Assembly (NCBI GenBank): GCA_029008875.1
Contig: JAQXJP010000038.1
Location: forward strand, 1-64,000
DNA: 64,000 nt
DNA from: Lachnospiraceae bacterium
GTDB lineage: Bacteria; Bacillota; Clostridia; Lachnospirales; Lachnospiraceae
Direction of reading: 5' to 3'
Shown here: piece after piece, positions 37,095 through 55,809 of the stretch
Layout: every line of letters begins with the position of its first letter
Numbering within the stretch: the stretch's first letter is position 1
The notes under the pieces: model-generated
Told to the model about the DNA's origin: nothing
The model's database searches: none
The model's input: the letters and a program-made list of their open reading frames with translations, nothing else
Position numbers and translations under genes: made by a program

Positions 37095-37122
37095 TTGAAA
37101 TCATTCATATATGTACTATGAT
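37095..37122 (+). promoter_or_regulatory. Promoter of the 52-residue small protein
   Basis: TTGAAA (37095-37100), 16 bp, TATGAT (37117-37122), 40 bp before the ATG. Confidence 0.5.
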
Positions 37123-37162
37123 ATAAGTAAGAAGTGACAAAAATCTAAAGGAGGTCAAGCGT

Positions 37163-37321: not shown

Positions 37322-37407
37322 CAAGTATGCTGCCGATAGCAAGCTATATCACAGATAACAAGCTTATCACAGACAAATGAATTGTTGGCGATATCCAAAA
37401 GACATAG

Positions 37408-37433
37408 AAACAGGGCTGGTAACAGCCCTGTTT
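37408..37433. terminator. Bidirectional terminator after the small protein and the WYL genes
   Basis: Perfect 11-bp stem AAACAGGGCTG / CAGCCCTGTTT with GTAA loop, short T-rich tails on both strands. It lies 2 bp past the stop of the WYL gene. Confidence 0.85.
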
Positions 37434-37434
37434 C

Positions 37435-39608: not shown

Positions 39609-39627
39609 ATCTCATCCTCCTGCAATT

Positions 39628-41028: not shown

Positions 41029-41045
41029 CGGTATTCTCCCATACG

Positions 41046-41420
41046 CTATTTTACCTTAAACAGAACCTCCCTGGATGCCAGATAAAACATATCACCCTTT
41101 TGGAGCAGAACCGGCGAACCTTCCCGCACACGCGTTCCATCTGCCAAAAAAGTTCCGTAAGAGGAGTTTAAGTCCTTTAGGAGCAACCCGTCCTTCTGCG
41201 GCACCACCTCACAGTGTATGCGGCTGATTCCTCTCGCATCCTCCGGAAAAACCATGTTGCAGTTTCGAATGTTACGTCCAAAAATGATCGGTCTGTCACA
41301 CTTTAGTGCCACACAACCATGGGGTCCTGCAACTTCTTCCAGATACCACTCCTGCTCTTCCTTTTCCAGTTCCTCCAACGAAATCATTGGAGGGACCGAA
41401 ATATCCCGTGCCGTATACAT
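41046..41420 (-). CDS. Small FHA-domain protein
   Basis: 124 residues, almost all FHA domain. Phosphothreonine-binding residues are in place: FGRNIRNCNMVF, GISRIHCEV and LNSSYGTFLADG. No other domain. It would read a phosphothreonine made by the kinase at 45725, which is inference from the cluster. Its ATG lies 2 bp after the stop of the previous FHA gene. Confidence 0.92.
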   Translation of the reverse strand: MYTARDISVPPMISLEELEKEEQEWYLEEVAGPHGCVALKCDRPIIFGRNIRNCNMVFPEDARGISRIHCEVVPQKDGLLLKDLNSSYGTFLADGTRVREGSPVLLQKGDMFYLASREVLFKVK

Positions 41421-41422
41421 AT

Positions 41423-42037
41423 CTACTCCACTTCCTTCTCAAAGGTCTGATCCCAGTCAAATCCCTCTCCACAGAAAGGAATAAATACGAACTTTGTTAC
41501 TCCAAGCTCGATTATATCATAAGCTTTCAATTCTGTGATAGAGAAAATAGCATTTTCATTCACACGGACAAGGTTTTTTCCTGTCCCGGGTTTAAAATAG
41601 AATTTCTTACTCCGTGTATCGTAAGAGATGACTGCGTGATTCTCTTTGGAAATGGTATCATCCCCGCTAATGCAGATGCTCATTCTTCGGCTTCTTCCGA
41701 TAAAATTGTTATCGGAATGGATGCGATAATCCGTTCCCTTTAATGTGCCTGTCACCGCAACCAGCCAGCCTACTACGGGATCCATTCCCTTTTCCTTCAT
41801 GTATGCGGACTCCGTTCTATCCTCCTCATCGTAATCGTAGGCATCACTATCACCCCTCGTAGCAGAAGCTTTATGCCCTCCTGCCTCGGTGGGAGTGAAC
41901 TCATCTTCATCGTCATCCGCTCCTCTGGTCAAGTCGAGCTGTTTATTTGCCTCCTCCCCATAACAGTACGGGCATCTTTCATGCTCCCTCGGATCATATG
42001 TATGTCCATTCTTACAGAATTCCAATACTCTAGCCAT
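41423..42037 (-). CDS. FHA-domain protein with zinc-ribbon-like N-terminus
   Basis: 204 residues. The first 25 residues hold FCKNGHTYDPREHERCPYC, a CxNGH...CPxC zinc-binding-like motif. An acidic, flexible stretch (about 35-80) follows, then an FHA domain (about 90-195: FIGRSRRMSICIS, TISKENHAVISYD). The loop normally reading SxNG is replaced by KNLVRVNE. A related protein with the same plan is encoded at 51364. This is the first gene of the operon driven by the element at 42079-42115. Confidence 0.88.
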   Translation of the reverse strand: MARVLEFCKNGHTYDPREHERCPYCYGEEANKQLDLTRGADDDEDEFTPTEAGGHKASATRGDSDAYDYDEEDRTESAYMKEKGMDPVVGWLVAVTGTLKGTDYRIHSDNNFIGRSRRMSICISGDDTISKENHAVISYDTRSKKFYFKPGTGKNLVRVNENAIFSITELKAYDIIELGVTKFVFIPFCGEGFDWDQTFEKEVE

Positions 42038-42078
42038 TTTTGTTCCCTCTCTTTCAATTGTTTGTTTTTGATATCTTT

Positions 42079-42115
42079 ATCTTAACTGCTACATAGGGAA
42101 TTATTTTGCACTTTT
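42079..42115 (-). promoter_or_regulatory. Island promoter element, copy 1 (FHA operon)
   Basis: Minus strand AAAAGTGCAAAA (starting 42115), 19 bp, TAAGAT as -10 (42084-42079), 41 bp before the ATG. Same offset in all five copies; no TTGACA-like -35. Confidence 0.78.
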
Positions 42116-43649
42116 ATTCCCAGGAAATTCGGTATTCAAAAGCCCCAATATAGATAATATCCTCCTGATGCACCTGCGTTTCGACAGTGACGAGAATTCC
42201 ATTCAAAAACGTTCCGTTGGTGGAATCCAAATCCCTTAGATACATTTTCCCCTTTTCCATACGCAGTTCACAATGCATTCCGGACACCTGATGATCCTCT
42301 GCAATGACAAGACCTGCACTCTTTCTGCGTCCGATAACCAGCGTATCTTCGCATTCTGCCGTCAAAATCCGCGTTGCTACCGGTCCCACCTCTGTGAGAG
42401 TCACCATTACAGGCTTATGCAGCTCTGACTTTGTTTCTGTTTCCGGTTCCTCGTCCTGACCTGCCCTCGTTGCGGAAATGTCCTCCAACGCATACTCAGG
42501 CACTTCCTTTTCGCTGTTTTCTTCTAAAGGTTTCCTCTTATGCAGAATAGCAACTCCAAGTCCGGCCATTGCGGCAACTGCTGCAACTAAAATTATCACA
42601 TATACCGCTTTCGAAGAATTATGAGTGTTCTCCACATCTGTCTCTTCTACCTCTGTCCCATTTTGTTCCGGACTCTCTTCCTGCAGTTTTTCCGTTATCA
42701 CAGCAGAGATTTCATGGGAAGGAATCTGGCAGGAATCGCCCTGTATCATTTCTTCTCCCACCTGCAGTTCTACACTTAATGTTACGTTGGAACCATTGGG
42801 CACAAAATCTTCCAACGCAATCTCAACCACTACGCCGCCATGGGAAAACTCCAAAAAAGCATCTGCGATGGCCTCATTGTCAAGTCCCCCATCTTCATAG
42901 CGAATATGTACTCCTCCGGCTGCATTTTCCGTGAAACTTTTCATCACCTTATCCGGTGCGTCCTCACTGCCTGCCGTCGTCTGCTTCCAAGGCATTGCCA
43001 ACGTACAGATGGGAATATTCTCTCTCCTAATTGCATCGCGCACATCTTCAAAGAGAATGCCGTTTTTCTGGTCATCCATTCCGTCCGAAATAATTACAAG
43101 ACACTTCTTCTGATGGCAGTTCTCCTCTGCCGTCAAAATCTTCAGTGCCTCCCTGACCGCCAGATACAGGTTGGTATCCTCCCTCGTGCGTTCCATTGCC
43201 TGAATCAGCTCGAGCAATGCATTCTTATCCGATATGAAATCCGTCTTCACGATTTCATTGCGAATCTCAACGATTGAGATATTGTCCTGCTCCCCTTTCT
43301 TTTCCACCAGTTTCGTCAGAATCTCTCTGGTATTTGCAACATCCTCATCCGTCACGGAGCCGGACACATCCACCAGCACAAGATAGGACACCCCTTCATC
43401 GGTATCTGCAAAAGGAGTTACCTTCTCTGCCGTGTAAACCGAATCTCCAAGAATAATGTTTAAATTATCCTCCTTTATTGCAGTATCACTGTCCGAGTTC
43501 AAATAGATTCGCATTGCATTTTCTGTCAGGTCATAGCCTTCTATATTAATTTTTTTCACATCCGACGCATATGTCACAGTTGCTCCGAGCACAGACATTA
43601 CAAGCAGAACACAAATTCCCCACACCCATTTTCTTAATTTGCTTTTCAT
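42114..43649 (-). CDS. Extracellular vWA domain joined through the membrane to a cytoplasmic FHA domain
   Basis: 511 residues. Signal peptide 1-29. Outside: a vWA domain (about 85-285) with an intact metal site DVSGS (94-98), Thr in EDTNLYLAV and VIISDGMDD. One membrane helix (about 347-368). Inside: an acidic linker and an FHA domain (about 430-511: VIGRRKSAGLVIAEDHQVSGMHCEL, LDSTNGTFLNG). A protein that binds a ligand outside and a phosphothreonine inside could pass a signal either way. It overlaps the RDD-FHA gene by 4 bp. Confidence 0.9.
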   Translation of the reverse strand: MKSKLRKWVWGICVLLVMSVLGATVTYASDVKKINIEGYDLTENAMRIYLNSDSDTAIKEDNLNIILGDSVYTAEKVTPFADTDEGVSYLVLVDVSGSVTDEDVANTREILTKLVEKKGEQDNISIVEIRNEIVKTDFISDKNALLELIQAMERTREDTNLYLAVREALKILTAEENCHQKKCLVIISDGMDDQKNGILFEDVRDAIRRENIPICTLAMPWKQTTAGSEDAPDKVMKSFTENAAGGVHIRYEDGGLDNEAIADAFLEFSHGGVVVEIALEDFVPNGSNVTLSVELQVGEEMIQGDSCQIPSHEISAVITEKLQEESPEQNGTEVEETDVENTHNSSKAVYVIILVAAVAAMAGLGVAILHKRKPLEENSEKEVPEYALEDISATRAGQDEEPETETKSELHKPVMVTLTEVGPVATRILTAECEDTLVIGRRKSAGLVIAEDHQVSGMHCELRMEKGKMYLRDLDSTNGTFLNGILVTVETQVHQEDIIYIGAFEYRISWE

Positions 43650-44479
43650 AACTTTTTCCCCACTCTAAATTGTTCGCTCTGTCCAAGCGAAAATGCTTCC
43701 CCTTCTTCCAACAGCACTGCTTTCCCTGCCGGTATTCTGGATCCGTCCTCTAAAAACGTTCCGTAAGAAGACTCCAGATCTGTCAAAATATATGTGTCAT
43801 CCGCCTCACGATACGCAACCGAGCAATGACGTCTGCTGATACGCGGCGCATCTTCTTCAAACACCAGATTACAGGTGGTGGAACGTCCCAACGTCACTTT
43901 TCTGGTCAGCGGAATAAATGTGTCTTCGTACATTCCTGACACACCGTAAAGGCCAGGCACCGGCTCCTGCTCCCGGGTCGCAACTTTTTTCTCCTCTTTC
44001 ACTTCCCCGCTTACATTCTCGTCCCCTTCATCCCTCTTATCCGATTTGCAAGTATTTACTGTGGTAGCCCCAACCATATCATGAATTGCATATCCCTTGT
44101 TTATGAACGGAACAAGAAAATAAATGCCTGCAATGACTATGGTGATAATCCAAATATTTGGGAACATGACAATGATAAGGATTGGCATCGTCTTTACCAG
44201 GTTACGCACTACAAAGTCAACCGCAGAAGGCCTCTTCCCGTTTTTTCCGACAACCTGTTCCTTCACGATTTTTCTTCCCAGTGTCTGTCCATCGTTGGTC
44301 AAATCCATAACTGCCATATAGAAAAAGAGCAAAATTGGGAATATAATTGCATAGTTTCGTATTTCTTTTCCCGCAATGCTTGCTGCTGAGAACATGAATA
44401 TTGCTGCTACAACCGCAGTCACTCCCATATCAATCAGCCCTGCAACAATTCTTTTTCCCATACCTTCTTGTCTCTTCAT
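43646..44479 (-). CDS. RDD-type membrane protein with FHA domain
   Basis: 277 residues. The N-terminal half (about 1-150) is an RDD domain with four hydrophobic segments and the conserved Arg and Asp residues (GKRIVAGLIDMGV, DGQTLGRKIV). A charged linker with Lys/Glu leads to an FHA domain (about 190-277: LGRSTTCNLVFEEDAPRISRRHCSV, LESSYGTFLEDG). The RDD part may carry a transport or anchoring role. It overlaps the vWA-FHA gene (ATGA) and follows a 42-residue small membrane protein by one base. Confidence 0.9.
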   Translation of the reverse strand: MKRQEGMGKRIVAGLIDMGVTAVVAAIFMFSAASIAGKEIRNYAIIFPILLFFYMAVMDLTNDGQTLGRKIVKEQVVGKNGKRPSAVDFVVRNLVKTMPILIIVMFPNIWIITIVIAGIYFLVPFINKGYAIHDMVGATTVNTCKSDKRDEGDENVSGEVKEEKKVATREQEPVPGLYGVSGMYEDTFIPLTRKVTLGRSTTCNLVFEEDAPRISRRHCSVAYREADDTYILTDLESSYGTFLEDGSRIPAGKAVLLEEGEAFSLGQSEQFRVGKKL

Positions 44480-44480
44480 C

Positions 44481-44609
44481 TTATTCTTCCACCTTTTCTC
44501 TTTCTCTTCTTTCCAGATTTTCCTCTTCCGTCCGCAACTGTATCAATTGAATCAATCGTCGTCCGGCAAACAACATACACAGGATTCCTGTCATAATACA
44601 AATATTCAT
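44481..44609 (-). CDS. Small membrane protein, 42 aa
   Basis: A short open frame between two operon genes: ATG at 44609 with GAGGGGGCGTG upstream, stop one base before the RDD-FHA start. The product begins with a membrane helix (MNICIMTGILCMLFAG) and ends in a highly charged helix (LRTEEENLERREREKVEE). The fit to the operon spacing and the ribosome site support it as real. Its partner is unknown; single-helix proteins of this kind often assist a membrane complex. Confidence 0.6.
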   Translation of the reverse strand: MNICIMTGILCMLFAGRRLIQLIQLRTEEENLERREREKVEE

Positions 44610-44624
44610 CTTGCACGCCCCCTC

Positions 44625-45203
44625 TTATATCACGGATAAAAATGACAAAAGCATCAGAATCACAAAGCCCCAGATGACCACTACCAGAATGCTATCGATG
44701 ATACTCTTCTTTTTCTTTGGCACCGTGGTGGGCCTTGCCGGTGTGCATGCTGTCGATCTGGGTCTCCCATCCCTGCTACTGCTGCGCTGTTTTTCTGCCT
44801 TATACTTCTTTACCGTTTGATCCTTCAAATAGTAATTTACCATTTTGTAGGATTCTTCATAGAGAAGCTCATACATGAGCACCAACTGCTGTCTTGTAAT
44901 CGTCTCCCCCGGATGAGAGCTTAGATTTCCATAATCAATCAAGGTGCCAAAGTTTCTCTGAGAGTTCCGGCTTATAATTCGATTTCTTCTCGCCGCATTA
45001 AAGTTTTTCCTGAAAGATCCATCACTCTGGATTCCATACTTAATCAGGCACTCCTTCATTAATCCCTCTGCCACCTGGCGCATCGCATTTCCTGCCATCT
45101 TCATTTCGGACGGATTCTTAGCTGCCAGTATCATCCCTTCCGCCGAAACAGCGGTTTCATAGAATTTCGGATACCCGCTTAAATGTGTAAAATTCGTTCT
45201 CAT
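44625..45203 (-). CDS. Tail-anchored DUF4145-like protein
   Basis: 192 residues. Residues about 1-130 are helical and resemble DUF4145/HEPN-type proteins (AGNAMRQVAEGLMKECL, IDYGNLSSHPGETI), with Gly where catalytic HEPN proteins have Arg. A basic, disordered stretch (about 135-165: SSSRDGRPRSTACTPARPTT) leads to a C-terminal membrane helix. Tail-anchored, cytoplasmic domain. It opens the second operon, driven by the element at 45252-45288. Confidence 0.78.
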   Translation of the reverse strand: MRTNFTHLSGYPKFYETAVSAEGMILAAKNPSEMKMAGNAMRQVAEGLMKECLIKYGIQSDGSFRKNFNAARRNRIISRNSQRNFGTLIDYGNLSSHPGETITRQQLVLMYELLYEESYKMVNYYLKDQTVKKYKAEKQRSSSRDGRPRSTACTPARPTTVPKKKKSIIDSILVVVIWGFVILMLLSFLSVI

Positions 45204-45251
45204 ATTCCCCTCTCCTCTATAGTGATTTCACATTTTCTTTTTGTTATCTTC

Positions 45252-45288
45252 ATTATAGAGAAGAGGTTATAAATAATTTTGCGCTTTT
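45252..45288 (-). promoter_or_regulatory. Island promoter element, copy 2 (DUF4145/RDD/vWA operon)
   Basis: AAAAGCGCAAAA from 45288, 19 bp, perfect TATAAT (45257-45252), 48 bp before the ATG. The element begins on the stop codon of the gene upstream. Confidence 0.8.
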
Positions 45289-45707
45289 TATTGTTCGATC
45301 AGAATCCAACTCTCAATGGCCGCTTTCTTCCATTCCGCCTTCAGTTCATCCGATATCTGAGGGCTTGGAAAAATGGTGTTGTTGAAGTAATCAAGGAGTT
45401 CGAAGCGGTTTACCGTAATCTTCAACCCTTTATCTAATTTGAAAATAAAAGTATGAAATCCATGTCCTTTTTCATCAAAGCATTTACAATATTGTTCTAA
45501 ATACTTCTCACGATCTTCTTTGTATCCATCATTCTTCCAAAGGTAGACTAAATCCTTCCTCATCAATTCAATCTGTAAGGCAATCTGTGCCTCCGTAGGA
45601 TTTTTCCAGAAAAGAAGCGCTCCTTCTTTTTGGGACAGTTGAACCAATGTTACACTTAACCCAATGCCAACTATAACAGCTATACAAATTGCTAAAATTA
45701 CTATCAT
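45288..45707 (-). CDS. Membrane-anchored hypothetical protein, 139 aa
   Basis: No family recognised. An N-terminal membrane helix (about 2-24) is followed by a 115-residue domain with Trp and Tyr (LFWKNPTEAQIALQIELM, YLEQYCKCFDEKGHGFHTFIFKL, TVNRFELLDYFNNTIF). It lies 17 bp downstream of the Ser/Thr kinase gene, so it belongs to the kinase operon and may be a partner or substrate; that is inference from position. Confidence 0.7.
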   Translation of the reverse strand: MIVILAICIAVIVGIGLSVTLVQLSQKEGALLFWKNPTEAQIALQIELMRKDLVYLWKNDGYKEDREKYLEQYCKCFDEKGHGFHTFIFKLDKGLKITVNRFELLDYFNNTIFPSPQISDELKAEWKKAAIESWILIEQ

Positions 45708-45724
45708 ATAACCTTCCTCCTTTA

Positions 45725-46957
45725 TTACCTATAGTATACGCCAATGAATATCCACAAAAGGACACCAAGCACCAAATAACCACATGAGATTATGTTTTGT
45801 TTATTTCTGATTGTCCTTAACTGTGCCTTCACCTTCATGCGCTCCATCGCCACTTTTTGCGGATCCACCGGTGCCTTCGGAGAGCTTTCTGTCTTCTGCT
45901 CTTTTTCCTCCTTGCTTTCCTCCGAAGTCTTCTCTCCCTGACTCTCCGGTTGAGGATTACTCGCCTCCTCATAATCGGCATGACTCTCCTCATAAAACGC
46001 CTTCATCAGCTCCTCAACGGACTGAATTCTGTTCTCCGGATATACTGCAAGTCCTTTTAAAAGTGTTGTCTCCATTGTAGCCGATATTTCTACCCCGTAT
46101 TCCCGCGGTGCAACCAAATCATCTTCTCGTCGCCGGTCTCCGGCTAGTGGCATCCTTCTTCCTGTGATACAGATATAAATTGTGGCACACAGTGCATAGA
46201 CGTCCGTCCATGGCCCCTGCTTCATCTTCTCACTATCCTGCTCAATCGGAGTATAGAAGCTCTTGGAATATATCGACATGGTATGTCCATCGAGCGTATC
46301 TCTGGCTGTGCCAAAATCAATCAGGTGAACCGTTTTGAGATCCTTGCTAATCATAATGTTATCCGGGCTGATATCACGGTGGATAATATTTTCCCTGTGG
46401 ATTTTAGTCAAAGTCTCCATCAAGGGCCGAAACAACTTCAGCACCTCCTCCATGCTCATGCAACCATCCCCGGAATTCTTGAGGGTCTTTAAGTATTTCT
46501 TTAATGTCATCCCTTCAATATAATCCATGACGATATAGGCTGTACCGTTTTCGACAAAGAAATCCCGCACGGAAACCACGCCCTTTTCATTACGAAACTT
46601 TGCCAGACGTCTTGCTTCGTTGATGACTTTATTCTTTTCCTTCTCGAAGGCTTCCTCCGCATCCTCATTGTAAGGATACAAGGTCATTCCATCTTCCGCC
46701 TCTCTCCCTACTAAGCCTTTGGGACAGAATTCTTTGATTGCCACGCGGATTTCCAAGGCCAGATCAAAACCGATATAGGTAATTCCAAAACCGCCCTCAC
46801 CGATGACATTCCCCACTAAGTATTTTCCATTCAGAATACTGCGCACCGGAAGATGCATATTTCCATTATCCGAATCTTTAGCTCCACAGCTTGTGCAGAC
46901 ACCGCTTTCATTCAAAGTTCCTTCCATACATTTCATACAAAAATGATTGATATTCAT
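45725..46957 (-). CDS. Ser/Thr protein kinase with zinc ribbon and C-terminal membrane helix
   Basis: 410 residues from the ATG at 46957 (GAGGAGGAAGATT upstream). N-terminal zinc ribbon with C7, C10, C21, C24. Kinase domain about 45-330: Gly loop GEGGFG (53-58), Lys75 in VAIKE, HRD (193-195) with the Asn of SPDN, DFG (214-216). The APE motif is changed to TPIEQ, as in many bacterial zinc-ribbon kinases. A Glu-rich linker and a membrane helix (about 391-408) follow, with almost nothing outside, so it is not itself a receptor. It is the only kinase here with all key residues, hence the likely source of phosphothreonine for the FHA proteins. It has a separate promoter. Confidence 0.93.
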   Translation of the reverse strand: MNINHFCMKCMEGTLNESGVCTSCGAKDSDNGNMHLPVRSILNGKYLVGNVIGEGGFGITYIGFDLALEIRVAIKEFCPKGLVGREAEDGMTLYPYNEDAEEAFEKEKNKVINEARRLAKFRNEKGVVSVRDFFVENGTAYIVMDYIEGMTLKKYLKTLKNSGDGCMSMEEVLKLFRPLMETLTKIHRENIIHRDISPDNIMISKDLKTVHLIDFGTARDTLDGHTMSIYSKSFYTPIEQDSEKMKQGPWTDVYALCATIYICITGRRMPLAGDRRREDDLVAPREYGVEISATMETTLLKGLAVYPENRIQSVEELMKAFYEESHADYEEASNPQPESQGEKTSEESKEEKEQKTESSPKAPVDPQKVAMERMKVKAQLRTIRNKQNIISCGYLVLGVLLWIFIGVYYR

Positions 46958-46989
46958 AATCTTCCTCCTCATTTGCGAATCCACGCTTT

Positions 46990-47019
46990 ATTATAATATT
47001 AACTTCCTCTTCGCCACAA
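46990..47019 (-). promoter_or_regulatory. Kinase operon promoter (different from the island element)
   Basis: TTGTGG (47014-47019), 18 bp, TATAAT (46990-46995). No AAAAGYGCAAAA word nearby. Confidence 0.5.
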
Positions 47020-47021
47020 CA

Positions 47022-48542
47022 TTATTCTTCCAGTTCCAAAATCCGCTCCCTGAAGGTATCCAATTTATCTATTTTCATATTCAAATCGGAACCTGTTGAG
47101 TAATTGATAATACTCACAACTCCAACAAGATTTCCCCTGTAATCCACCATTGCCGTCCCACTCATTCCATGCTTTGCACCTCTGGTGGTCTCGATACAGG
47201 TATTGGTATAGTCATATCCCTTAAAACTTACCGATTCGGTAATCTTTTTTAATGTAACTTTCTTGATCACATCGTCGAAGCCGAATCCCCAGTTCGCGCA
47301 ACACTCAATGAGTGGTTCCCCACTTTTCAGTTTAGAATAAATATCCAAATCCACGGATATCTGTTTCAGATTTACTAGCGTGTCATGGGGAACGATTTCC
47401 GTCGGAATTCGAAACAGCACAATTTCATTGGAACTCGCCAATCGAACGTAGTCAATGGTTGTGTTGACAATCGCGTCATCATAGAAAACAATGTTCGTTT
47501 CCTCTTTCAGATTCCGCGTCACATGCTCCACCGAAATACAGTAAATGTACTCCGGTCCAATCTCAACAATAAATCCGGATCCCCCAAAATTCTCTGTGCG
47601 AAGGTTTATAAGTGTTGGTCTCACCAACTCCAAAGATTGATCATAATCCGGCTCTTCCAACGGTTCATAACAAAAGAATCCCTGCTCACACAAAAAATTC
47701 AATTCTTCCTCTGACAGTTTCTGTTCGTCCAGCTGCGCATAAGTTTCCACATCGCCTTCTTCGCAGACGTAGATTACAGCTTCCTTGCTGGCAGAAAGCC
47801 CGTTGTGGTCCTGCACTGTGTATACAATTTCATAGGCTCCTTCCGTATCCCCATCAAGGTCCGTTGCCGCCTCAATTTCTTCTGTAAGGAAACCATCTTC
47901 CAAGTCCCATGCAATTACACCCCCAAGCACATCATACTCTGTCCCCTTGACAATATATCGATCCCACACTCCCAGTAATGTCGGTGGGACATCTGCCATC
48001 ACTGTAAGTTCCGTATCTGTGTAATTGCCTGAGGCATCTTCCGCTCGAATGCAAATATGGTAATTCCCTGCTTCTGAAAAGGAAACCTCTGTTGTCTGTT
48101 CCCCATTGTATTCTAGGAAATAGGTATTCACTTCTCCTGATAAATCGGAAACGCCGCTGATAAAAGTATCGACACCGTACTCTGCATCAACCGCAAGACA
48201 GGGTATGTCATCCCACTTTTCAACAGTTGGTGCCGTGGTATCCTCCACACGAATCAGATATGTATATTTCCGATAAAGAGCCTTACAATAGACCTTATAC
48301 TGTCCCGGATTGGTTTCGTCCATCTCTGTGGTGTCCAGGACCGCCCGCTCGAGTATCCATTCCTTTCCGACGAGATAGTCATCAACCTCCGTGCTGATTG
48401 GAGTACCCAATTCAACCGTGGTTTCTTTGAATACCTGTTCTACATGGAACTGCCTCTCCAAAACAGCGAGTCCCAAAATACCGATACACACAATTACAAA
48501 AGTAGCACATCGAATGAACAGTTTCTTTTTTTCTTCTTTCAT
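47022..48542 (-). CDS. Membrane-anchored Ig-like plus trypsin-fold protein with altered triad
   Basis: 506 residues, one N-terminal membrane helix (about 10-28), rest outside. Residues about 95-260 hold Ig-like DUF5011-type modules (DTTAPTVEKW, AEDASGNYTDTEL, VYTVQDHNGLSAS). Residues about 315-500 are a trypsin/HtrA-like fold: GGSGFIV, H340 in SVEHV, S461 in GMSGTA, and VGVVS. Where the catalytic Asp normally stands the segment reads SNEIVLFRI, so Glu373 or Asn372 takes its place. Activity may be weak or lost; it could be a sensor or an atypical protease. First gene after the element at 48593-48629. Confidence 0.78.
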   Translation of the reverse strand: MKEEKKKLFIRCATFVIVCIGILGLAVLERQFHVEQVFKETTVELGTPISTEVDDYLVGKEWILERAVLDTTEMDETNPGQYKVYCKALYRKYTYLIRVEDTTAPTVEKWDDIPCLAVDAEYGVDTFISGVSDLSGEVNTYFLEYNGEQTTEVSFSEAGNYHICIRAEDASGNYTDTELTVMADVPPTLLGVWDRYIVKGTEYDVLGGVIAWDLEDGFLTEEIEAATDLDGDTEGAYEIVYTVQDHNGLSASKEAVIYVCEEGDVETYAQLDEQKLSEEELNFLCEQGFFCYEPLEEPDYDQSLELVRPTLINLRTENFGGSGFIVEIGPEYIYCISVEHVTRNLKEETNIVFYDDAIVNTTIDYVRLASSNEIVLFRIPTEIVPHDTLVNLKQISVDLDIYSKLKSGEPLIECCANWGFGFDDVIKKVTLKKITESVSFKGYDYTNTCIETTRGAKHGMSGTAMVDYRGNLVGVVSIINYSTGSDLNMKIDKLDTFRERILELEE

Positions 48543-48592
48543 AAGTTTCTTCCTCCGTTGTAAATAATAGTTTCTCTCTTCTATCTAGGAAA

Positions 48593-48629
48593 ATTGTAGC
48601 AACGCGGTCAGAAACTTTTTTGCGCTTTT
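48593..48629 (-). promoter_or_regulatory. Island promoter element, copy 3 (Ig/trypsin gene)
   Basis: AAAAGCGCAAAA from 48629, 19 bp, TACAAT (48598-48593), 50 bp before the ATG. Confidence 0.78.
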
Positions 48630-48633
48630 CTCC

Positions 48634-48657
48634 AAAAAAGAGTAGGTTCCCCTACCC
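48634..48657 (-). terminator. Probable terminator of the PP2C/FHA operon
   Basis: GTAGG / CCTAC stem with GGAA loop (48642-48655), flanked by a further imperfect pair, then TC and TTTTTT on the minus strand. Located just upstream of island promoter copy 3. Confidence 0.6.
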
Positions 48658-48669
48658 TTTTCATGTCCT

Positions 48670-49914
48670 CTATTCCTTGCGCCATGTGACGCTATCATAC
48701 AACTCTTGGTTAACAATGTTGACTTCCACCTGCTCTCCGTTTTCTACTACAACGGACAAAACCAGATTGTTGTTGGGATCATAATAATCCTTCTGATAAC
48801 TATCATCCGAATTATCTCCCATTATATATTTATTGTAGGATGTCCAGCCTTCTGCAGGGTAATCTTCGGCAAAATAGGCCTCTTCCGTCTCTCCGTCAAT
48901 CACATTCCATTTTTGCACAATATTTTCCCCTGCCTGATACATTGTAGAAGTATAAGTATTCTCCGACTCAAATGTTGTTTGAATCGTTTTTCCGTCATCA
49001 TAATAATCCGTTCTTGCAATCTCGGAACCCTCATAAATATACACATCTGACGAAAGATTCCCGGATTCATCATAATATTTAAGTATTTCCGTATCTTTCC
49101 CTTTTGGATACGTGCCGCATACCAATAATCTTCCGGAAGAATCGTACTTCTCCTGCTTGACTATGACACCATCCTCCACCGTGATAATCATGTATCCTCC
49201 ATCTTCCTGCTTTTCCTTATATGTTCGATTATTTTTGTAATAATTTGAATATCCTATCAGGAAAGCCATCGCAAGAATTAATGCTGCCAGACCGAATACC
49301 AGCTTCACCATATTAGATTTCTTTGGCTTCTCGGATTTTACGGATGTTTTCGCCACGTGGACTTCTTCCAGTATTTCTTCCTGTGTTTCATCCGACATCT
49401 CTTTCGGTGGGGTCACCTTCTCCGGTTGCGGTGCGGATTGCGAAGATATACGCTCCTCCTGCGCTTTCACACAGTCCATAACAATATACACCGTATCATT
49501 CTCGCGAAAGAGATCCAAAATAGACACCCCATCCCTCTCGTTGTAATTCCGGGCCTCTTCCCTTGCCTCCCCGATGAATTTTTCCTCTTCCTTTTCAAAG
49601 GTCTCCCGTTTTTCCTCGTCACAGAGTAAAACGGTCAATTCGTCGTTTTCGTCTCGTCTGACATATTGTGCCGGAAAAAATTCCTTAATTGCCACAGATA
49701 TTTGCAGTGCCAAATCATATGCGATATAGACAATCCCGAGACTGCCTTCTCCTGTGGCTCTTCCAATCAGATATCTCCCATTCAATATGGTGCGCATCGG
49801 CAAATGATTGGGATGACATATAATCTCGCTTTCGTTTTTCCCGCAAGCAACACATTTTCCATTTTCATCCAATTTTTCCCGCATGCAATTCATACAAATT
49901 TTTCTTATGTTCAT
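48670..49914 (-). CDS. Zinc-ribbon, kinase N-lobe only, membrane helix and outside domain
   Basis: 414 residues from the ATG at 49914; a GTG at 49929 is in frame. The start is parallel to the active kinase: zinc ribbon C7, C10, C21, C24, then LPMRTILNGRYLIGRATGEGSLGIVYIAYD-type N-lobe with Lys77 in VAIKE. The lobe stops at the hinge (VYIVMDCVK, near 149): the whole C-lobe with HRD and DFG is missing. A Pro/Glu/Lys linker, a membrane helix (203-221) and an outside domain (about 235-414) follow, with MORN- or YwqK-like Tyr/Asp/Gly repeats (YDSSGRLLVCG, YYDESGNLSSD). No frameshift is visible, so this looks like a stable design, not decay. Confidence 0.8.
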   Translation of the reverse strand: MNIRKICMNCMREKLDENGKCVACGKNESEIICHPNHLPMRTILNGRYLIGRATGEGSLGIVYIAYDLALQISVAIKEFFPAQYVRRDENDELTVLLCDEEKRETFEKEEEKFIGEAREEARNYNERDGVSILDLFRENDTVYIVMDCVKAQEERISSQSAPQPEKVTPPKEMSDETQEEILEEVHVAKTSVKSEKPKKSNMVKLVFGLAALILAMAFLIGYSNYYKNNRTYKEKQEDGGYMIITVEDGVIVKQEKYDSSGRLLVCGTYPKGKDTEILKYYDESGNLSSDVYIYEGSEIARTDYYDDGKTIQTTFESENTYTSTMYQAGENIVQKWNVIDGETEEAYFAEDYPAEGWTSYNKYIMGDNSDDSYQKDYYDPNNNLVLSVVVENGEQVEVNIVNQELYDSVTWRKE

Positions 49915-49932
49915 CCTGCTTCCCCACACCTT

Positions 49933-50502
49933 CTATTCGAATACAACCGCTATGGCCGAATAGCTATCGTCAAATGTTTCCATGCGCAAGCCGATTCTTG
50001 TCGACAAATAAGAAATCCAAGCCTGTGCAGTCTCCGATTTTGAAAAGTCAATTAATATATCCTGTTCTTCCACATATTTCCAGAACCCTTCCGTAGCCAA
50101 GATCAACGCTTCATCCTGTCTGGGAATATATTTGCGGCATAGAATCGTCTCTCTTGCTTCCCTAATAATTCTGCCTTCAGAGATCTCGTAGAGCCTATTA
50201 TTTCCTGCATCAGCGATTCCAATTGATTTGCCATCCAAAATTAAAATGGTAACCGACAACTTTCTTGAAATACCAAGCGCCTTCTCAAGGCATTCTGTCA
50301 AACGCTCCCGCGTTAACACCGAGTTCTGCTCCCATACATTGATAATGCTTACCGCCATGTCTTCCACATCTTTGGGGTCAGTCTCTTTCGATGCATCCAC
50401 TGCAACAATCATCATCCCATCCCCATATGATTTCTGAACAATACATTCCGTGTCTACCGTATGACTGCCCAGCCTTTTACATCCGCTAATAGTTGCTTTC
50501 AT
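49933..50502 (-). CDS. Degenerate PP2C-like protein
   Basis: 189 residues from the ATG at 50502. It follows the PP2C order in short form: MIVAVDAS where DGMGG is expected, LSVTILILDGKSIGIADAGNNRLYEI for the central strands, ALILATEGFWKYV for the ASDG region, and SYSAIAVVF at the end. The metal-binding Asp residues are mostly lost. It is probably a pseudophosphatase that binds without cutting. It lies 17 bp after the active-looking PP2C gene. Confidence 0.72.
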   Translation of the reverse strand: MKATISGCKRLGSHTVDTECIVQKSYGDGMMIVAVDASKETDPKDVEDMAVSIINVWEQNSVLTRERLTECLEKALGISRKLSVTILILDGKSIGIADAGNNRLYEISEGRIIREARETILCRKYIPRQDEALILATEGFWKYVEEQDILIDFSKSETAQAWISYLSTRIGLRMETFDDSYSAIAVVFE

Positions 50503-50519
50503 CCTTGTTCTCCCCCATA

Positions 50520-51374
50520 TCACTTACATTTGATTATGACGCCGGTATAATTATCCTGCTTCGGGTTGGCCGCCTGCTCGATTGCCTCACGCATATTCTT
50601 TGCCGCATTGCCAGCTTCCGATTGCAAAATTCTCTTCATTGTCTCCTCAGAAAGAGTTCCAAAAACGCCATCTGATGCCAACAATAGAATATCGTTCTTT
50701 TCCAAAAGAAGTGGTCGGAGAGAAACGTCATACAAATCCAACTCTTCTATCCCGATATAACTGGTAAGTCCGGACTTTCCGATTATGTCCTGATAAGACT
50801 CCAGATCGATTTCTTCCTTCGCAAGCCTTTCAATCATCTTGCTTTTCACATTGTGCTCTCGATTCAGCTGATACATCTTCCCGGCTCTCAACAGATAGAT
50901 TCTGCTGTCTCCAACCGCAAGGAAGTGCAATCGATTCCCGCGAATCAACGCCGCCAAAAGAGTAGAACCGCTCTCATCCTCATCGGACTCTTGCTGAAGT
51001 TGTTTTGCCCGTCCATCGATAAATGAAAGCATGGATTGCAATTCTTCCGTCCCATCCCCCAGATGAAAAGGCAATACTTTTTCATAAAATTCCATGGCTG
51101 CCCTGGTTACAACGGCACTCATCTCAGCCCCGTTCATCATGCCGCCCATTCCATCGGCGACCACCGCCAAAAAACCCCTCTCCTCTATCATTTCGACATT
51201 GTTGTAATCAGACACATAGAAACTGTCCTCCTGTTGTCTTCTTCTTCCGATTCCTTGAAAATTACTAATTTCTAAATACAGATCTCGGTGACATATTCCT
51301 GAACGATTCCCCCCCAACCTTCTTTTGAAAAAATCCAAAAAAGACCTCTTATTGCTATCGTTATCACTCTTCAT
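50520..51374 (-). CDS. PP2C-type Ser/Thr protein phosphatase
   Basis: 284 residues from the ATG at 51374 (GGGAGG upstream). All PP2C blocks are present: QQEDSF, VVADGMGG, SGSTLLAAL, AVGDSRIYLL, LLASDGVFG and a final QDNYTGVII, so two-metal catalysis is expected. No membrane helix. An N-terminal basic segment (FLDFFKRRLGG) could touch membrane. It would reverse phosphorylation by the kinase at 45725. The start overlaps the FHA gene upstream by 11 bp, which suggests coupling. Confidence 0.93.
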   Translation of the reverse strand: MKSDNDSNKRSFLDFFKRRLGGNRSGICHRDLYLEISNFQGIGRRRQQEDSFYVSDYNNVEMIEERGFLAVVADGMGGMMNGAEMSAVVTRAAMEFYEKVLPFHLGDGTEELQSMLSFIDGRAKQLQQESDEDESGSTLLAALIRGNRLHFLAVGDSRIYLLRAGKMYQLNREHNVKSKMIERLAKEEIDLESYQDIIGKSGLTSYIGIEELDLYDVSLRPLLLEKNDILLLASDGVFGTLSEETMKRILQSEAGNAAKNMREAIEQAANPKQDNYTGVIIKCK

Positions 51375-51918
51375 TCCAATCCTCCCATCTAAAGTTGTCG
51401 CCACACAGAGGTGCAAAGACTAATTTCATGGAGCCGATTTCAATACAGTCACGATTATGCAATTCTACCGTTTCAAATACGGGATTTCCATTGATATAGT
51501 CAATGCTTCTTCCTATTTCCGGGGAATAATAATACTTCTTCGCTTTGTCATCATAACTGATGGATGCATGATTCACTCTGGAGATGGTCTTATCTCCCTG
51601 AATACAAATATCCATGGACCGATCACGCCCGATGAAATTGCGTCCATATAGAATTTTGTAATCTTTTCCCTTTCCTTCACCATCAACACAGACCAACCAC
51701 CCCGCTATTGGTTGAAATCCAATCTTCTTCACTGCTTCAGCTACCGTTACGTCCTCATTCCCGTCCTCCGGCACATGATACCCACGTACCACACGGCGCA
51801 TTTCCGCGGAACCTGCGGTTTCTCCCCCATTCTTTTTACAAGTAGGGCACTCGGAATATTTCTCCGGATTGTAGTAATGTCCTTTTTTACAAATTCTTAA
51901 ATCTCCTGGATTAGCCAT
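51364..51918 (-). CDS. FHA-domain protein with zinc-ribbon-like N-terminus
   Basis: 184 residues, same plan as the protein at 41423: CKKGHYYNPEKYSECPTCKK, a short linker, then FHA (about 85-175: FIGRDRSMDICIQ, TISRVNHASISYD, then SIDYINGNPVF). The two share enough to be paralogues (IAGWLVCV/VVGWLVAV, KLVFAPLCG/KFVFIPFCG). The Arg and Ser for phosphothreonine contact are kept. It is in one operon with the PP2C genes. Confidence 0.88.
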   Translation of the reverse strand: MANPGDLRICKKGHYYNPEKYSECPTCKKNGGETAGSAEMRRVVRGYHVPEDGNEDVTVAEAVKKIGFQPIAGWLVCVDGEGKGKDYKILYGRNFIGRDRSMDICIQGDKTISRVNHASISYDDKAKKYYYSPEIGRSIDYINGNPVFETVELHNRDCIEIGSMKLVFAPLCGDNFRWEDWNEE

Positions 51919-51968
51919 AATTTTTACCCTTTCTCTTCTTCCTTTTTTATGCTCTCATTCGACAAAAC

Positions 51969-52340
51969 TTACTGCCCCATGTACTGATTATGCTGTGATA
52001 TGTACTGCTGTGTTTGTTGCCATTGTTGCTCAAATTCCTGCTGTTTTTGCTGCACATATTGCTCCGATTGTTGTCTCTGTTGCTCAAACTGTTGCTGCTC
52101 CTCGGCTATCAACTGTCTTGTCTGCTCAATCCTTTGACGTTGCAGCTCCATGTCTTCTTTTGCCGCTTGAATTCCCTGATCCACCTGCTCTTGGCGCAAT
52201 TGTTGCTCCTGCTGTAATCTGTTCGTCTCCTCCTGCATACTCCGGCTGATATTCAGATACATCAGGAAGCCCATCCCTTTCCAAGCCATAAATGCCAAAA
52301 GCATAATCATTATCACTTTTCCAATTGTCATTTTTCTCAT
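51969..52340 (-). CDS. Membrane-anchored Gln-rich coiled-coil protein
   Basis: 123 residues. One membrane helix near the N-terminus (about 9-30), then a long Gln/Glu-rich coiled coil to the end (QEETNRLQQEQQLRQEQ, QQFEQQRQQSEQ). No enzyme domain. The helix and coil suggest a scaffold or spacer; the side of the membrane is uncertain. First gene of the FHA/PP2C operon, with the island element at 52390-52426. Confidence 0.8.
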   Translation of the reverse strand: MRKMTIGKVIMIMLLAFMAWKGMGFLMYLNISRSMQEETNRLQQEQQLRQEQVDQGIQAAKEDMELQRQRIEQTRQLIAEEQQQFEQQRQQSEQYVQQKQQEFEQQWQQTQQYISQHNQYMGQ

Positions 52341-52389
52341 CTTACATTTCCTCCTGATAATTAATGTGTTAATGTTTCTTTCTGCATTT

Positions 52390-52426
52390 ATCTTATCAAG
52401 GCTCTAGAAATTTTTTTTGCACTTTT
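52390..52426 (-). promoter_or_regulatory. Island promoter element, copy 4 (FHA/PP2C operon)
   Basis: AAAAGTGCAAAA from 52426, 19 bp, TAAGAT (52395-52390), 49 bp before the ATG. Confidence 0.78.
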
Positions 52427-52484
52427 TAGTATACCAGTTTCATTATAGTACTAATTTCCCGAGTAGCACAACGCTTTTCAGCAA

Positions 52485-53231
52485 TTATTGGGTTTTCGAA
52501 TTATAGGAAATAACCGTTCGTCCTCGATTGAATTCCTCTTCGCCAATCAAAAGGTAGTCATCCGTTCCGTTCGAATCGTTCCATGTAACATCCACATAAT
52601 AATAAGTTCCATCGATCAACACGCGGTTCCATGCATGCGTGCTGGTTGCTGTTGGGCTGCCATATCCTCTGATGTAATCCGTCGGAACTCCGGCGGTATT
52701 CATTAAGTCCTTAAATGCATTGGCATATCCCTGACAACGTCCCCTCCCTACTAAAATTGCTTGGCGCGTCGTATAGTAATCGGTATCATATGTCATGTGG
52801 TCACACAGGTATTGGTTTACGGCACGCACCTTTTCGAAATCATCCATATCCGGTGTGATAATCTGTGACACTACCCACTGGCACAACTCGTCTTTGGACA
52901 TTTCCGAGGGATTCTTTTCCTGTACTGTTTCCTCCTGTACTATTTCCTCTTGTACAGCTTCCCCTTGTACTGCTTCTTGTTGTACCATTTCCTGCTGCTC
53001 GGTTTCCCGCAATGCAGTTTTCTGCTGCACGGTTTCTTGGATAATCATTTCCTGGGAAACGACTGCCTGCTCGCAGATCACAGAATCCTCTAGGAAGGAG
53101 AAAACCTGTCCATTCAGCCGGATTCCACAGTCGGATTGGCCGATATAAAACAATCCGACTGCCAGCGTTATGTATAGAATCAACTGCTTTTCTGTTTTCT
53201 TGATCTGATTATTAATTAATGCAAGATTCAT
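52485..53231 (-). CDS. Membrane-anchored transglutaminase-like protein
   Basis: 248 residues. Membrane helix at 16-34, a Val/Gln/Glu repeat linker (about 60-105, five-residue steps such as VQQEA, VQGEA, VQEEI, VQEET), then a transglutaminase core with Cys166 (GRGRCQGYA), His199 (STHAWN) and Asp214 (VDVTWND). All three catalytic residues are kept, so it could act as a peptidase or crosslinker outside the cell. It follows the TPR gene by 24 bp in the operon headed by element copy 5. Confidence 0.88.
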   Translation of the reverse strand: MNLALINNQIKKTEKQLILYITLAVGLFYIGQSDCGIRLNGQVFSFLEDSVICEQAVVSQEMIIQETVQQKTALRETEQQEMVQQEAVQGEAVQEEIVQEETVQEKNPSEMSKDELCQWVVSQIITPDMDDFEKVRAVNQYLCDHMTYDTDYYTTRQAILVGRGRCQGYANAFKDLMNTAGVPTDYIRGYGSPTATSTHAWNRVLIDGTYYYVDVTWNDSNGTDDYLLIGEEEFNRGRTVISYNSKTQ

Positions 53232-53255
53232 GATTTTCTCCTTCCTGAATATTCT

Positions 53256-55337
53256 CTATTCTGCTTTTTTGCGCCGAATTATGAGGGCAGAAACAACTCC
53301 TATGAGAATCACTACAACACCTACACCTGCTACTGCCCAAATGGTATTGCCGGCAAATCCCTCTTCACTCTCCTGTTCCGCGGACTGTCCGACAGTTTCC
53401 GTCACTTCCTCATTCAGCACTTTTATCCCTGCCATCTCACAAAACTGCTCATCCGTAAGCAGATTTTTAAGTTCGCAGTCATGTACGATTTCCCGTGCTG
53501 AACTTGGACAATTATCCAGCAGGTACTGATAGATTTCTCTCGCTTTGTCAAAGCGGCCCAGGATGCTTTCCGCTATCAGCAAATCCGTATCCTCATATGC
53601 ATACTGGATACTGTCAATATCTGCGATTACCTCATCCGCCCCTTCCATTCCAAGGGCAGTAAGGGCTGCGGCTTTATATGCCTTTGCCTTCAAGGAGTCC
53701 GGGGCTTCTTTCAAATACTGATCAGCATAATTTAGTAATGCTTCGTAGTCCTCTTCCTGGTATGCAATCAGCATATAGTAGTAAGCGACATCATCTGTTC
53801 CTCCTTCTGAGAGATAATAGTCAATCTCAGTGCGTGCCTGATCATACTGACCTGACTGAATATAGCATTCTGCCATGTTGAGTATGCTAACCCTTGCATG
53901 AGCTTCCTTGAAATTGTTTTCATACATTGCTACTGCCATCTCATAATCCTGATTGTAGTAATAACAATTTCCCAACCCATTATTGGCATAATAGCTTAGT
54001 ATTCCCGCCTGATTTAATGCCTTTTTGTAGTATGGCAGAGCCTCCTCATACCGACCCAAACCGCATAGCAAAGAGCCAACTGTTTGCAAATAATAGTAAT
54101 TGTCTCCATCTTCTTCCAGACATCCCAAAAAGTAAGACAGATAACTTTCCAATGTTGTCTGCGTCATGTAAGAGGTATCAATGCTATCGCTTAACATGAG
54201 AGCCTGCATTTCCTTTGTTTGTGGCCACCCCGGGTATTCAGACAGAATCTGTAGTGCTTCCTCTGCCGTGATGTCTTTCCGGTACATAATGGTGTAGTTG
54301 TATGCCTTAAGATAGGTATCATCCATCTGGATTACTTCCCGGTATATATCCGATACCTCATCCAGCTTGCCACTTTTTCTTGCTACAACTGCAAGATTCC
54401 CCTTCGTACCGTTTGCCTCCGGATTCAATGCAACAACTTTTTCAAACAGTTCCTTTGCATCTTCATACTGTCCGAGTCCATCACAATAGATCGCTCCCAA
54501 TTTGTTCATCGACGCGGTATCCGTTGGATTTTCCAAGAGAATTTCCTCATACAGCGAAGCAGCTTCCTTTGCTAACCCCATACTGTAATAGGTATCTGCC
54601 TTTAAGCTTCGCAGATCCGCCCCTTCTTCGTTTTCCGCCTTCTCACAATATTGCAGAGCCTCTTCATAGTAGTCGTAGTCGGAAAGGGTATCGACGATTT
54701 CTTCATAGGTATATCCGCTCAAATAATTTGAGACAATGGTTTCCACATCACTCAATTTCCATTCCAATTCCAACGCCGCCATCTTTTCCCGATAATAATC
54801 TACATCACCATCTACCGCACACATCTCCTCATAGGCTTGCGCAGCTTTATCCGTCATTCCCAAATTCTTATAGCAATCCCCGATGGCTCTCAGATAGGTT
54901 GCTCTTATGGGGTCTTCGTCACCATAGCTGTTCAGAATATCCTTATATATTTCAATTGCCTTGTCATACTGCTTACAGCTTACCAACGCGTCCCCATAGA
55001 TGGATGCCATATAATTATCGGCACACCCCAGTTCCACTGCTTCGAAATAATATTTTTCGACATACCAGTATTCCTTTGCATTAAACATACTTTTGATTTT
55101 CTGTTCAAAGATAGCATCCGTTCCCCCTCCTTCCTGTATCAGTTCGTAAGCTTGATCATACAGTTCATTTGCTTTGTAATGGAAACCTTGCTCTTCTTCA
55201 CTTTTCCCGGCATTCCACAGTTCCGCCGCATCCGCCGCAAATACGGTTGCTATATTTCCAAGCAACATAGCACTTGCTAACATTCCTGCTACCATTGTTC
55301 TCATTGTTACTCTCTTCTTTGCTAATTTTTTTTTCAT
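53256..55337 (-). CDS. TPR-repeat surface protein with C-terminal membrane anchor
   Basis: 693 residues from the ATG at 55337 (AGGAGTGATTATT upstream). Signal peptide to about residue 34 (VFAADA), about 15 TPR-like helical pairs (AIEIYKDILNSYGDED, ALPYYKKALNQAG, ASLYEEILLENPTDTASMNKLGAIY) and a membrane helix near the C-terminus (AVAGVGVVVILIGVVSALI) with RRKK. The repeats are outside the cell, anchored by the helix, and would serve as a protein-binding scaffold. It leads the operon with the transglutaminase-like gene. Confidence 0.9.
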   Translation of the reverse strand: MKKKLAKKRVTMRTMVAGMLASAMLLGNIATVFAADAAELWNAGKSEEEQGFHYKANELYDQAYELIQEGGGTDAIFEQKIKSMFNAKEYWYVEKYYFEAVELGCADNYMASIYGDALVSCKQYDKAIEIYKDILNSYGDEDPIRATYLRAIGDCYKNLGMTDKAAQAYEEMCAVDGDVDYYREKMAALELEWKLSDVETIVSNYLSGYTYEEIVDTLSDYDYYEEALQYCEKAENEEGADLRSLKADTYYSMGLAKEAASLYEEILLENPTDTASMNKLGAIYCDGLGQYEDAKELFEKVVALNPEANGTKGNLAVVARKSGKLDEVSDIYREVIQMDDTYLKAYNYTIMYRKDITAEEALQILSEYPGWPQTKEMQALMLSDSIDTSYMTQTTLESYLSYFLGCLEEDGDNYYYLQTVGSLLCGLGRYEEALPYYKKALNQAGILSYYANNGLGNCYYYNQDYEMAVAMYENNFKEAHARVSILNMAECYIQSGQYDQARTEIDYYLSEGGTDDVAYYYMLIAYQEEDYEALLNYADQYLKEAPDSLKAKAYKAAALTALGMEGADEVIADIDSIQYAYEDTDLLIAESILGRFDKAREIYQYLLDNCPSSAREIVHDCELKNLLTDEQFCEMAGIKVLNEEVTETVGQSAEQESEEGFAGNTIWAVAGVGVVVILIGVVSALIIRRKKAE

Positions 55338-55382
55338 AATAATCACTCCTTCATTAATAAGATTTATCTTGTTTACAAGGTC

Positions 55383-55419
55383 ATCATATAGGAATCTTTG
55401 GAAATTTTTTTGCACTTTT
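55383..55419 (-). promoter_or_regulatory. Island promoter element, copy 5 (TPR/transglutaminase operon)
   Basis: AAAAGTGCAAAA from 55419, 19 bp, TATGAT (55388-55383), 45 bp before the ATG. Confidence 0.8.
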
Positions 55420-55437
55420 TACTGTTGCACTTTTCTA

Positions 55438-55476
55438 TAAAAAAAGACCACCGATTCGCATAAGAATCGATGGTCT
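55438..55476 (-). terminator. Terminator of the Cys-rich small protein gene
   Basis: 13-bp stem AGACCATCGATTC / GAATCGGTGGTCT with one G-T pair, then TTTTTTT on the minus strand. Confidence 0.88.
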
Positions 55477-55510
55477 GTCCATTAAATCAAGTATTCCGTT
55501 TTCCTATTAT

Positions 55511-55753: not shown

Positions 55754-55809
55754 TTTTGTTATTCCTTATCCAAACAAATTATTTTCAATCCAATTATTCT
55801 CACCCAATA

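Follow-up and report, generated by a model that had tools for sequence, protein, structure and literature searches.

A promoter element shared by five operons of a kinase, phosphatase and FHA gene island in a Lachnospiraceae bacterium, with a pair of WYL proteins as its candidate readers

Five operons of one gene island in a Lachnospiraceae bacterium share a promoter element that occupies the place of the -35 box. The island lies in a 64,000-nucleotide stretch of DNA, called the window here (contig JAQXJP010000038.1, positions 1 to 64,000, forward strand), of assembly GCA_029008875.1, which has 2,634,885 bases in 43 contigs and is 93% complete. The shared element itself is secure. We consider it likely that the element is the site at which two WYL-domain proteins encoded in the island, WYL2 and WYL1, act as a pair to recruit the housekeeping RNA polymerase and switch on the whole island, including their own genes.

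The core of the element, AAAAGYGCAAAA, occurs in five exact copies on the minus strand of the window, beginning at 42115, 45288, 48629, 52426 and 55419, and in no other exact copy there. The initial annotation had placed the copies at exactly these positions. When one mismatch is allowed, the window contains 8 matches, compared with 1.10 expected from shuffled sequences. In all five copies, a TANNAT hexamer begins at position 32 counted from the first base of the element, in agreement with the initial annotation of a -10 box at positions 32-37, and a start codon follows 41, 48, 50, 49 and 45 bases past the hexamer (copies in the order above), within the 41-50 originally reported. At the copy beginning at 52426, an ATG at 42 meets a stop codon at once, and the open frame starts at 49.

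The initial annotation described a 12-mer followed by an AT-rich run. The 12-mer is real, but the conserved part is a defined element of 19 bases rather than 12 bases and a vague run. Its consensus, AAAAGTGCAAAAAAATTTC, was derived from 16 full sites in four genomes: five sites from the genome of the window, eight from G360, two from G361 and one from G359. The last three are metagenome-assembled genomes (MAGs) whose record titles name them as Lachnospiraceae. With the -10 hexamer set as -12 to -7, the element spans about -43 to -25, which is the place of a -35 box. Over the 16 sites, information is high from -43 to -25 and at the -10 hexamer, and the 12 positions between carry 0 to 0.63 bits. 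The hexamer begins at position 32 in 14 of the sites and at position 33 in the other two, corresponding to spacers of 12 and 13 bases. A start codon with a stretch resembling a ribosome-binding site (RBS) lies 36-73 bases past the -10 hexamer in 17 of 19 sites examined. The copies in the window, all on the minus strand, are as follows.

55401..55419, minus strand: copy 1, identical to the consensus (0 bases off); predicted -10 TATGAT at 55383-55388; heads the TPR-transglutaminase operon
52408..52426, minus strand: copy 2, 2 bases off the consensus; predicted -10 TAAGAT at 52390-52395; heads operon B
48611..48629, minus strand: copy 3, 1 base off; predicted -10 TACAAT at 48593-48598; heads operon C
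45270..45288, minus strand: copy 4, 3 bases off; predicted -10 TATAAT at 45252-45257; heads operon D
42097..42115, minus strand: copy 5, 2 bases off; predicted -10 TAAGAT at 42079-42084; heads operon E, which includes WYL2 and WYL1
55423..55434, minus strand: partial tandem copy, AAAAGTGCAACA, 15 bases upstream of copy 1

None of the five promoters has a TTGACA-like -35 box at spacers of 15-19, the best match being 2/6 in each. Because 34% of random window positions match as poorly, each single case is unremarkable; across five promoters, the lack of a -35 box is real, as first noted. A standard promoter scan of positions 37000-56000 called none of the five. The element is asymmetric: no palindrome was found in a 21-base consensus, in which the best arrangements paired 4/7 or 4/9 positions. 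Copy 4 begins on the final base of the stop codon that ends the gene before it, and copy 5 also overlaps the preceding stop, so these two boxes may be internal promoters of longer transcripts.

The spaced element is confined to the island within its own genome. A search of the whole genome for AAAAGYGCAAAA-N19-TANNAT, as the initial annotation had proposed, returned five matches, all in the island and each heading one of its operons, rather than a scatter over unrelated genes. The 12-mer alone has 10 exact copies in the genome, of which 5 are in the island, whereas the density in the rest of the genome predicts 0.025 there (P about 9e-11). However, the 12-mer alone proved too loose a pattern, as the five extra copies lie in or near genes unlike those of the island, and none has a correctly placed -10 hexamer. 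Among 396 other genomes of the family, an extended pattern matched two, once each (reversed control, 1). A looser pattern matched 6 of 199 genomes (reversed control, 2) and 1 of 59 other genomes of the genus (reversed control, 2); these two sets partly overlap the set of 396. None of the seven looser-pattern background matches fits the tail pattern of the element, but that pattern was itself derived from island sites. Viral contigs gave four pattern matches, and no WYL2 relative was found there.

A cleaner test of specificity is the comparison of tails at sites that were found without use of the tail, positions 13-19 of the element having been left out of the search that gathered the relatives' sites. 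Eleven sites at WYL2-type loci or in a kinase cluster of G360 are 0-3 bases off the tail AAATTTC (six of them 0), whereas the four other places matched in the same 15 genomes are 4-6 off. For eight of the eleven sites, the next gene is a homologue of an island gene; for one, it is a small gene whose operon contains such homologues; the remaining two lie inside the G360 kinase cluster on contig C68. The 19-mer with at most one mismatch was found only in the four box-bearing genomes and in none of eight others. At three mismatches, it matched all 12 genomes searched and was set aside as not discriminating.

The box accompanies WYL2 in other genomes. A survey of species-representative genomes yielded 15 loci with a WYL2 relative, of which three exceed 40% identity (G359, 84%, locus L026; G360, 58%, L027; G361, 44%, L028). 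All three genomes carry the box, with the same spacing or, in the two sites noted above, one base more. The four loci have in common the box, WYL2 and a transglutaminase gene, and this association between box and WYL2 in three other genomes, together with the box beside homologous operons, supports the initial suggestion that the operons share an activator site and that the two WYL proteins are candidates to bind it. WYL2 itself is rare. It is present in only the genome of the window among 62 of its genus, in 1 of 7 in the genus of G360 and in 1 of 138 in that of G359; among 299 genomes of the family, it was found in the genome of the window, with two weak matches elsewhere. This rarity and the scattered occurrence of the island fit horizontal transfer.

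G360 has two clusters of boxes. That on contig C21 has five full boxes and two weaker ones (62028 and 63901) among re-ordered operons homologous to those of the window. Its units are an FHA gene with WYL2 and WYL1; TPR-transglutaminase; DUF4145-RDD/FHA-VWA/FHA; FHA-FHA-HEPN/kinase; FHA-PP2C-PP2C-like-kinase; and a second kinase behind a weak box. An extra element at G360:C21:48794 (L058) follows directly on the stop codon of WYL1 and is itself followed by a hairpin-like stretch; the TPR operon's box lies 109 bases further on. At position 32, this extra element has TATACT rather than TANNWT. The second cluster (G360:C68:35395-42604, L060) has three boxes, one heading a pair of Ser/Thr kinase genes and two heading units whose first genes are unlike window proteins. 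Genes for a heavy-metal P-type ATPase and a MATE transporter lie between these boxes. No WYL relative was found within the 27.6 kb of C68 that were read, so the boxes there point to action in trans.

The other two relatives are smaller. G361 has a mini-island in which one box precedes genes for a small protein, a PP2C phosphatase, a kinase and WYL2, and a second box precedes a transglutaminase gene. In G359, one box precedes TPR-transglutaminase, followed by WYL2 and WYL1; the WYL2-WYL1 pair is thus present in both G359 and G360.

Repeats of this kind could instead mark the boundaries of shuffled or duplicated operon modules and be kept by recombination rather than for regulation. The order of modules does differ between the window and G360, and the TPR, DUF4145, FHA-E1 and FHA-B2 modules keep their box despite the changed operon order. 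However, the fall to 0-0.63 bits between element and -10 hexamer indicates conservation base by base and not block copying, and the element is accompanied by a -10 hexamer at a fixed distance and, at 17 of 19 sites, by a start codon and RBS-like stretch beyond it. We regard this explanation as highly improbable.

At the other twelve loci with WYL2 relatives, no 12-mer with at most one mismatch and a correctly placed -10 hexamer was found at a comparable operon. The 19-base element was also read at eight of the twelve (L029-L034, L037 and L039) and in G004 and G197, the G004 stretch being the L039 contig again, and none was present at a comparable operon; L035, L036, L038 and L040 were covered by the 12-mer and -10 search alone. 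A site in L029 at 7912 (four mismatches, with a -10 hexamer) and one in G197 (three mismatches, without) were taken as chance matches. Distant WYL loci (L029-L034, L037, L039 and L103) often have adjacent WYL2-like and WYL1-like genes, and their cargo is quite different; very large proteins are among it, and in L037 there is a kinase-like protein. These loci may carry boxes of their own. FHA genes were also considered as a marker, but they do not define the island, being present in 10 of 12 genomes.

The two candidate regulators are encoded by overlapping genes at the end of operon E, and are thus two adjacent but different WYL genes.

38385..39608, minus strand: WYL2 regulator, 407 amino acids; winged helix-turn-helix (wHTH), predicted second wHTH, degenerate WYL domain and WCX domain; candidate reader of the element
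37435..38388, minus strand: WYL1 regulator, 317 amino acids (counted from the ATG at which database entry P0036 and homologues begin); predicted wHTH, WYL domain with RLDR motif and WCX domain; candidate partner and sensor

As judged from sequence profiles and structure models, both proteins have the features of class A WYL transcription factors (HTH-WYL-WCX). The WCX domain (PF25583) scores above the Pfam cut-off in both, and the WYL domain (PF13280) does so in WYL1. WYL2 has no Pfam WYL match, and the region is covered by PADLOC WYL profiles and fold matches. The N-terminal HTH of WYL2 scores 23.8 bits with HTH_11, just below the cut-off of 25 bits, and that of the G361 relative scores 35.2, above it. 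For WYL1, Pfam gave no HTH, and winged-helix helices and strands appear in the model alone. Residues 82-147 of WYL2 form a predicted second winged helix that separates the WYL domain from the N-terminal winged helix. The two models have a mean predicted local distance difference test score of 78 and 79 and a predicted template modeling score of 0.49 and 0.54, so the arrangement of domains is uncertain. Homologues listed number 34 for WYL2, including itself, and 29 for WYL1.

In two of the three box-bearing relatives, the first winged helix of WYL2, with its recognition helix, is better conserved than the second. Relative to G361, it has 11/15 identical residues, compared with 35/65 in the first wHTH and 20/74 in the second; relative to G360, the counts are 13/15, 54/66 and 41/74. 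In the six distant relatives compared, 2-6 of the 15 positions are identical (4/11 in that of G197). Fold searches with E up to 0.001 gave 32 matches in each list, with a template modeling score by query length of 0.21-0.46. The best matches in the PDB are PafBC on polymerase and DriD for WYL2, and DriD and PafBC for WYL1. The RLDR of WYL1 aligns with that of PafBC (a weak match, sequence E 0.0088), and WYL2 has QYGT at this place.

That WYL2, probably with WYL1, reads the element is supported by association. In the mechanism we propose, WYL2, probably together with WYL1, would occupy the -35 region over the element, with the first winged helix of WYL2 reading it. The bound proteins would straddle the -35 region as DriD does and recruit the housekeeping polymerase to promoters that have no -35 box. 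WYL1 is the likely sensor because it keeps the RLDR motif of the WYL groove, and its ligand, by analogy with DriD and PafBC, could be single-stranded nucleic acid. One of the boxes precedes the WYL genes, which would make the circuit self-amplifying.

Related designs have been described, and our comparisons draw on passages of the cited articles. In Caulobacter crescentus, sites of DriD overlap poor -35 boxes (1-2/6) at a constant distance from the -10 box, and structures with polymerase have two DNA-binding domains flanking the -35 region (PMC12340889). Like the island proteins, DriD has the order wHTH-WYL-WCX, and the position of its sites over a poor -35 box is the same. However, DriD binds as a homodimer to the pseudo-palindrome ATACGAC-N7-GTCGTAT, whereas the island has an asymmetric site and encodes two different WYL proteins; no such pseudo-palindrome was found in the island consensus. 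Also, DriD has a three-helix bundle where WYL2 has its predicted second winged helix. PafBC of mycobacteria, an example of sigma adaptation, activates housekeeping-sigma promoters without use of a -35 box (PMC11804915; PMC6789036). The HTH of PafB reads a -26 motif, and that of PafC holds sigma-4 (PMC11804915). As in the island, two different WYL proteins are encoded together. The -26 motif was compared with the island element by position only; the conserved bases of the latter include -28 to -25 but reach up to -43. SiwR of Mycobacterium smegmatis, a WYL protein, activates the operon next to its gene from a 19-bp site in the core promoter; this imperfect palindrome lies between the -35 and -10 regions and has GGA at -26 (PMC10693628). 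The island element, in contrast, is asymmetric. In the place of its site, the island is thus closest to DriD; in its two unlike subunits, it is closest to PafBC. Firmicutes commonly have class A WYL proteins (PMC6789036). Judged by titles and abstracts, no description of this island or box was found by full-text searches, and the literal 12-mer turned up in two articles, both on eukaryotes by their titles.

The WYL pair could also act in the opposite sense, as a repressor that covers the -35 region at an operator and leaves it on induction. CapW and BrxR are WYL repressors that leave their operators on induction. Like the island proteins, they are WYL regulators of neighboring genes (there, immune or restriction genes), and the fold searches with WYL2 and with WYL1 returned both. 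Occupancy of -43 to -25 would block polymerase, and repression by WYL proteins is named in a title in the reference list of PMC13373217. However, with a best -35 match of 2/6 in all five promoters, little activity would be left to repress, and the -10 spacing fixed in 14 of 16 sites is needed for contact by an activator but not for a repressor. The promoter design therefore favors an activator over a repressor of the CapW and BrxR kind. Moreover, the best DriD and PafBC matches outrank the best CapW and BrxR matches in both lists, although in the WYL1 list BrxR stands above some individual PafBC and DriD entries. Activation is the better of the two readings, and repression is unlikely.

Another factor, either an unlinked regulator or an alternative sigma factor, might read the element, with the WYL genes being passengers of the island. 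The link from WYL proteins to the element comes from sequence, and FHA, kinase and transglutaminase genes travel with the box too. However, the -10 hexamers are of the housekeeping type, and 19 conserved bases is long for contact by sigma-4 alone. Scans of 18 island proteins gave no match to a sigma-factor domain, and WYL2 gave the only DNA-binding domain match among six proteins scanned around the two boxes of G361. Pattern matches were found in 1 of 59 other genomes of the genus and 2 of 396 other genomes of the family. We find this explanation quite unlikely.

Several observations weigh against activation by the WYL pair. The element is asymmetric, unlike the sites of DriD and SiwR, and the sensor ligand is proposed by analogy. 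The link to WYL2 is an association in four genomes, three of them MAGs, and the transglutaminase co-occurs with the box as strictly as WYL2 does, though it gave no DNA-binding domain match. The fold matches include CapW and BrxR, at best ranks of 16 and 18 for WYL2 and 22 and 13 for WYL1. In the nearest relative, that of G359, the WYL2 recognition helix (87% identical) is no better conserved than the second wHTH (86%), and the domains are alike at 78-96%. The tail of background match L017 is only three bases off AAATTTC, equal to the weakest island sites. A one-mismatch 19-mer site (G360:C33:1683) and three sites with at most two mismatches to the 12-mer (G360:C21:78133, G360:C68:47895 and G359:C20:50841) lie at genes unlike those of the island. 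The scan of G359 gave one box, and none lies in the 331 bases before its WYL2. No WYL1 was found in 40 kb of G361, the rest of that genome not having been searched for it, and the G361 WYL2 frame (L066:1805-2875) ends early, at 356 amino acids compared with 410 in the close homologue P0028. Given these two features of G361, a pair may not be needed.

The favored reading, activation by the WYL pair, has a wider form that is possible but doubtful. Under it, a WYL pair outside the actinobacteria and proteobacteria would serve as a dedicated, asymmetric substitute for the -35 box, with unlike winged helices, possibly three, reading one oriented 19-base element. Kinase, PP2C and FHA proteins would feed back on the pair by phosphorylation, making a self-amplifying, movable phospho-signaling island that an operon joins by gaining one box.

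The island runs from 55.4 to 37.4 kb, with 18 genes taken as real, all on the minus strand, between two terminator-like hairpins. Its G+C content is 41-46% at 38-56 kb, compared with 48-52% at 56-64 kb; the window is equally low (44-45%) at 10-18 kb. In addition to the two WYL genes, its features are as follows.

55445..55476, minus strand: terminator-like hairpin before the island, 13 pairs and a T run
53256..55337, minus strand: TPR protein, starting at an RBS-preceded ATG downstream of copy 1
52485..53231, minus strand: transglutaminase-core protein, second gene of the TPR operon
48670..52340, minus strand: operon B, encoding a 123-amino-acid protein, an FHA protein, a PP2C phosphatase, a PP2C-like protein and a protein with a kinase-like N-terminus
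45288..48542, minus strand: operon C, encoding an Ig-like surface-type protein, a Ser/Thr kinase and a 139-amino-acid protein
42114..45203, minus strand: operon D, encoding DUF4145, RDD-FHA and VWA-FHA proteins
39628..42037, minus strand: first part of operon E, encoding two FHA proteins and a HEPN-like/kinase-like protein (both matches below the Pfam cut-off)
37406..37435, minus strand: terminator-like hairpin after WYL1 at the end of the island, 13 pairs

The HEPN-like gene (39628-41028; RiboL-PSP, below cut-off) and the DUF4145 gene (44625-45203) sit among kinases. PADLOC gave general kinase (PD-T4-6, mad6) and WYL matches; its matches to Cas3c, Csx1/Csm6 and to a model of a PDC phosphatase were weak, and a defense role for the island is a guess. 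Actinobacterial GTPase systems have genes for an active kinase, a PP2C phosphatase and vWA proteins together (PMC7159879). These neighborhoods share the kinase, PP2C and vWA genes with the island, and the passages of that article considered here mention neither a shared promoter box nor a WYL pair.

With this work, five promoters that lacked annotation become a defined candidate regulon, for which there are a named candidate regulator, a short testable sequence and natural variants in three other genomes. The box can also be used to search for more members of such islands, the second G360 cluster being an example. If the proposed role of the WYL proteins is correct, it would extend core-promoter activation by this family from Caulobacter and mycobacteria to a kinase, phosphatase and FHA island with relatives in the Lachnospiraceae.

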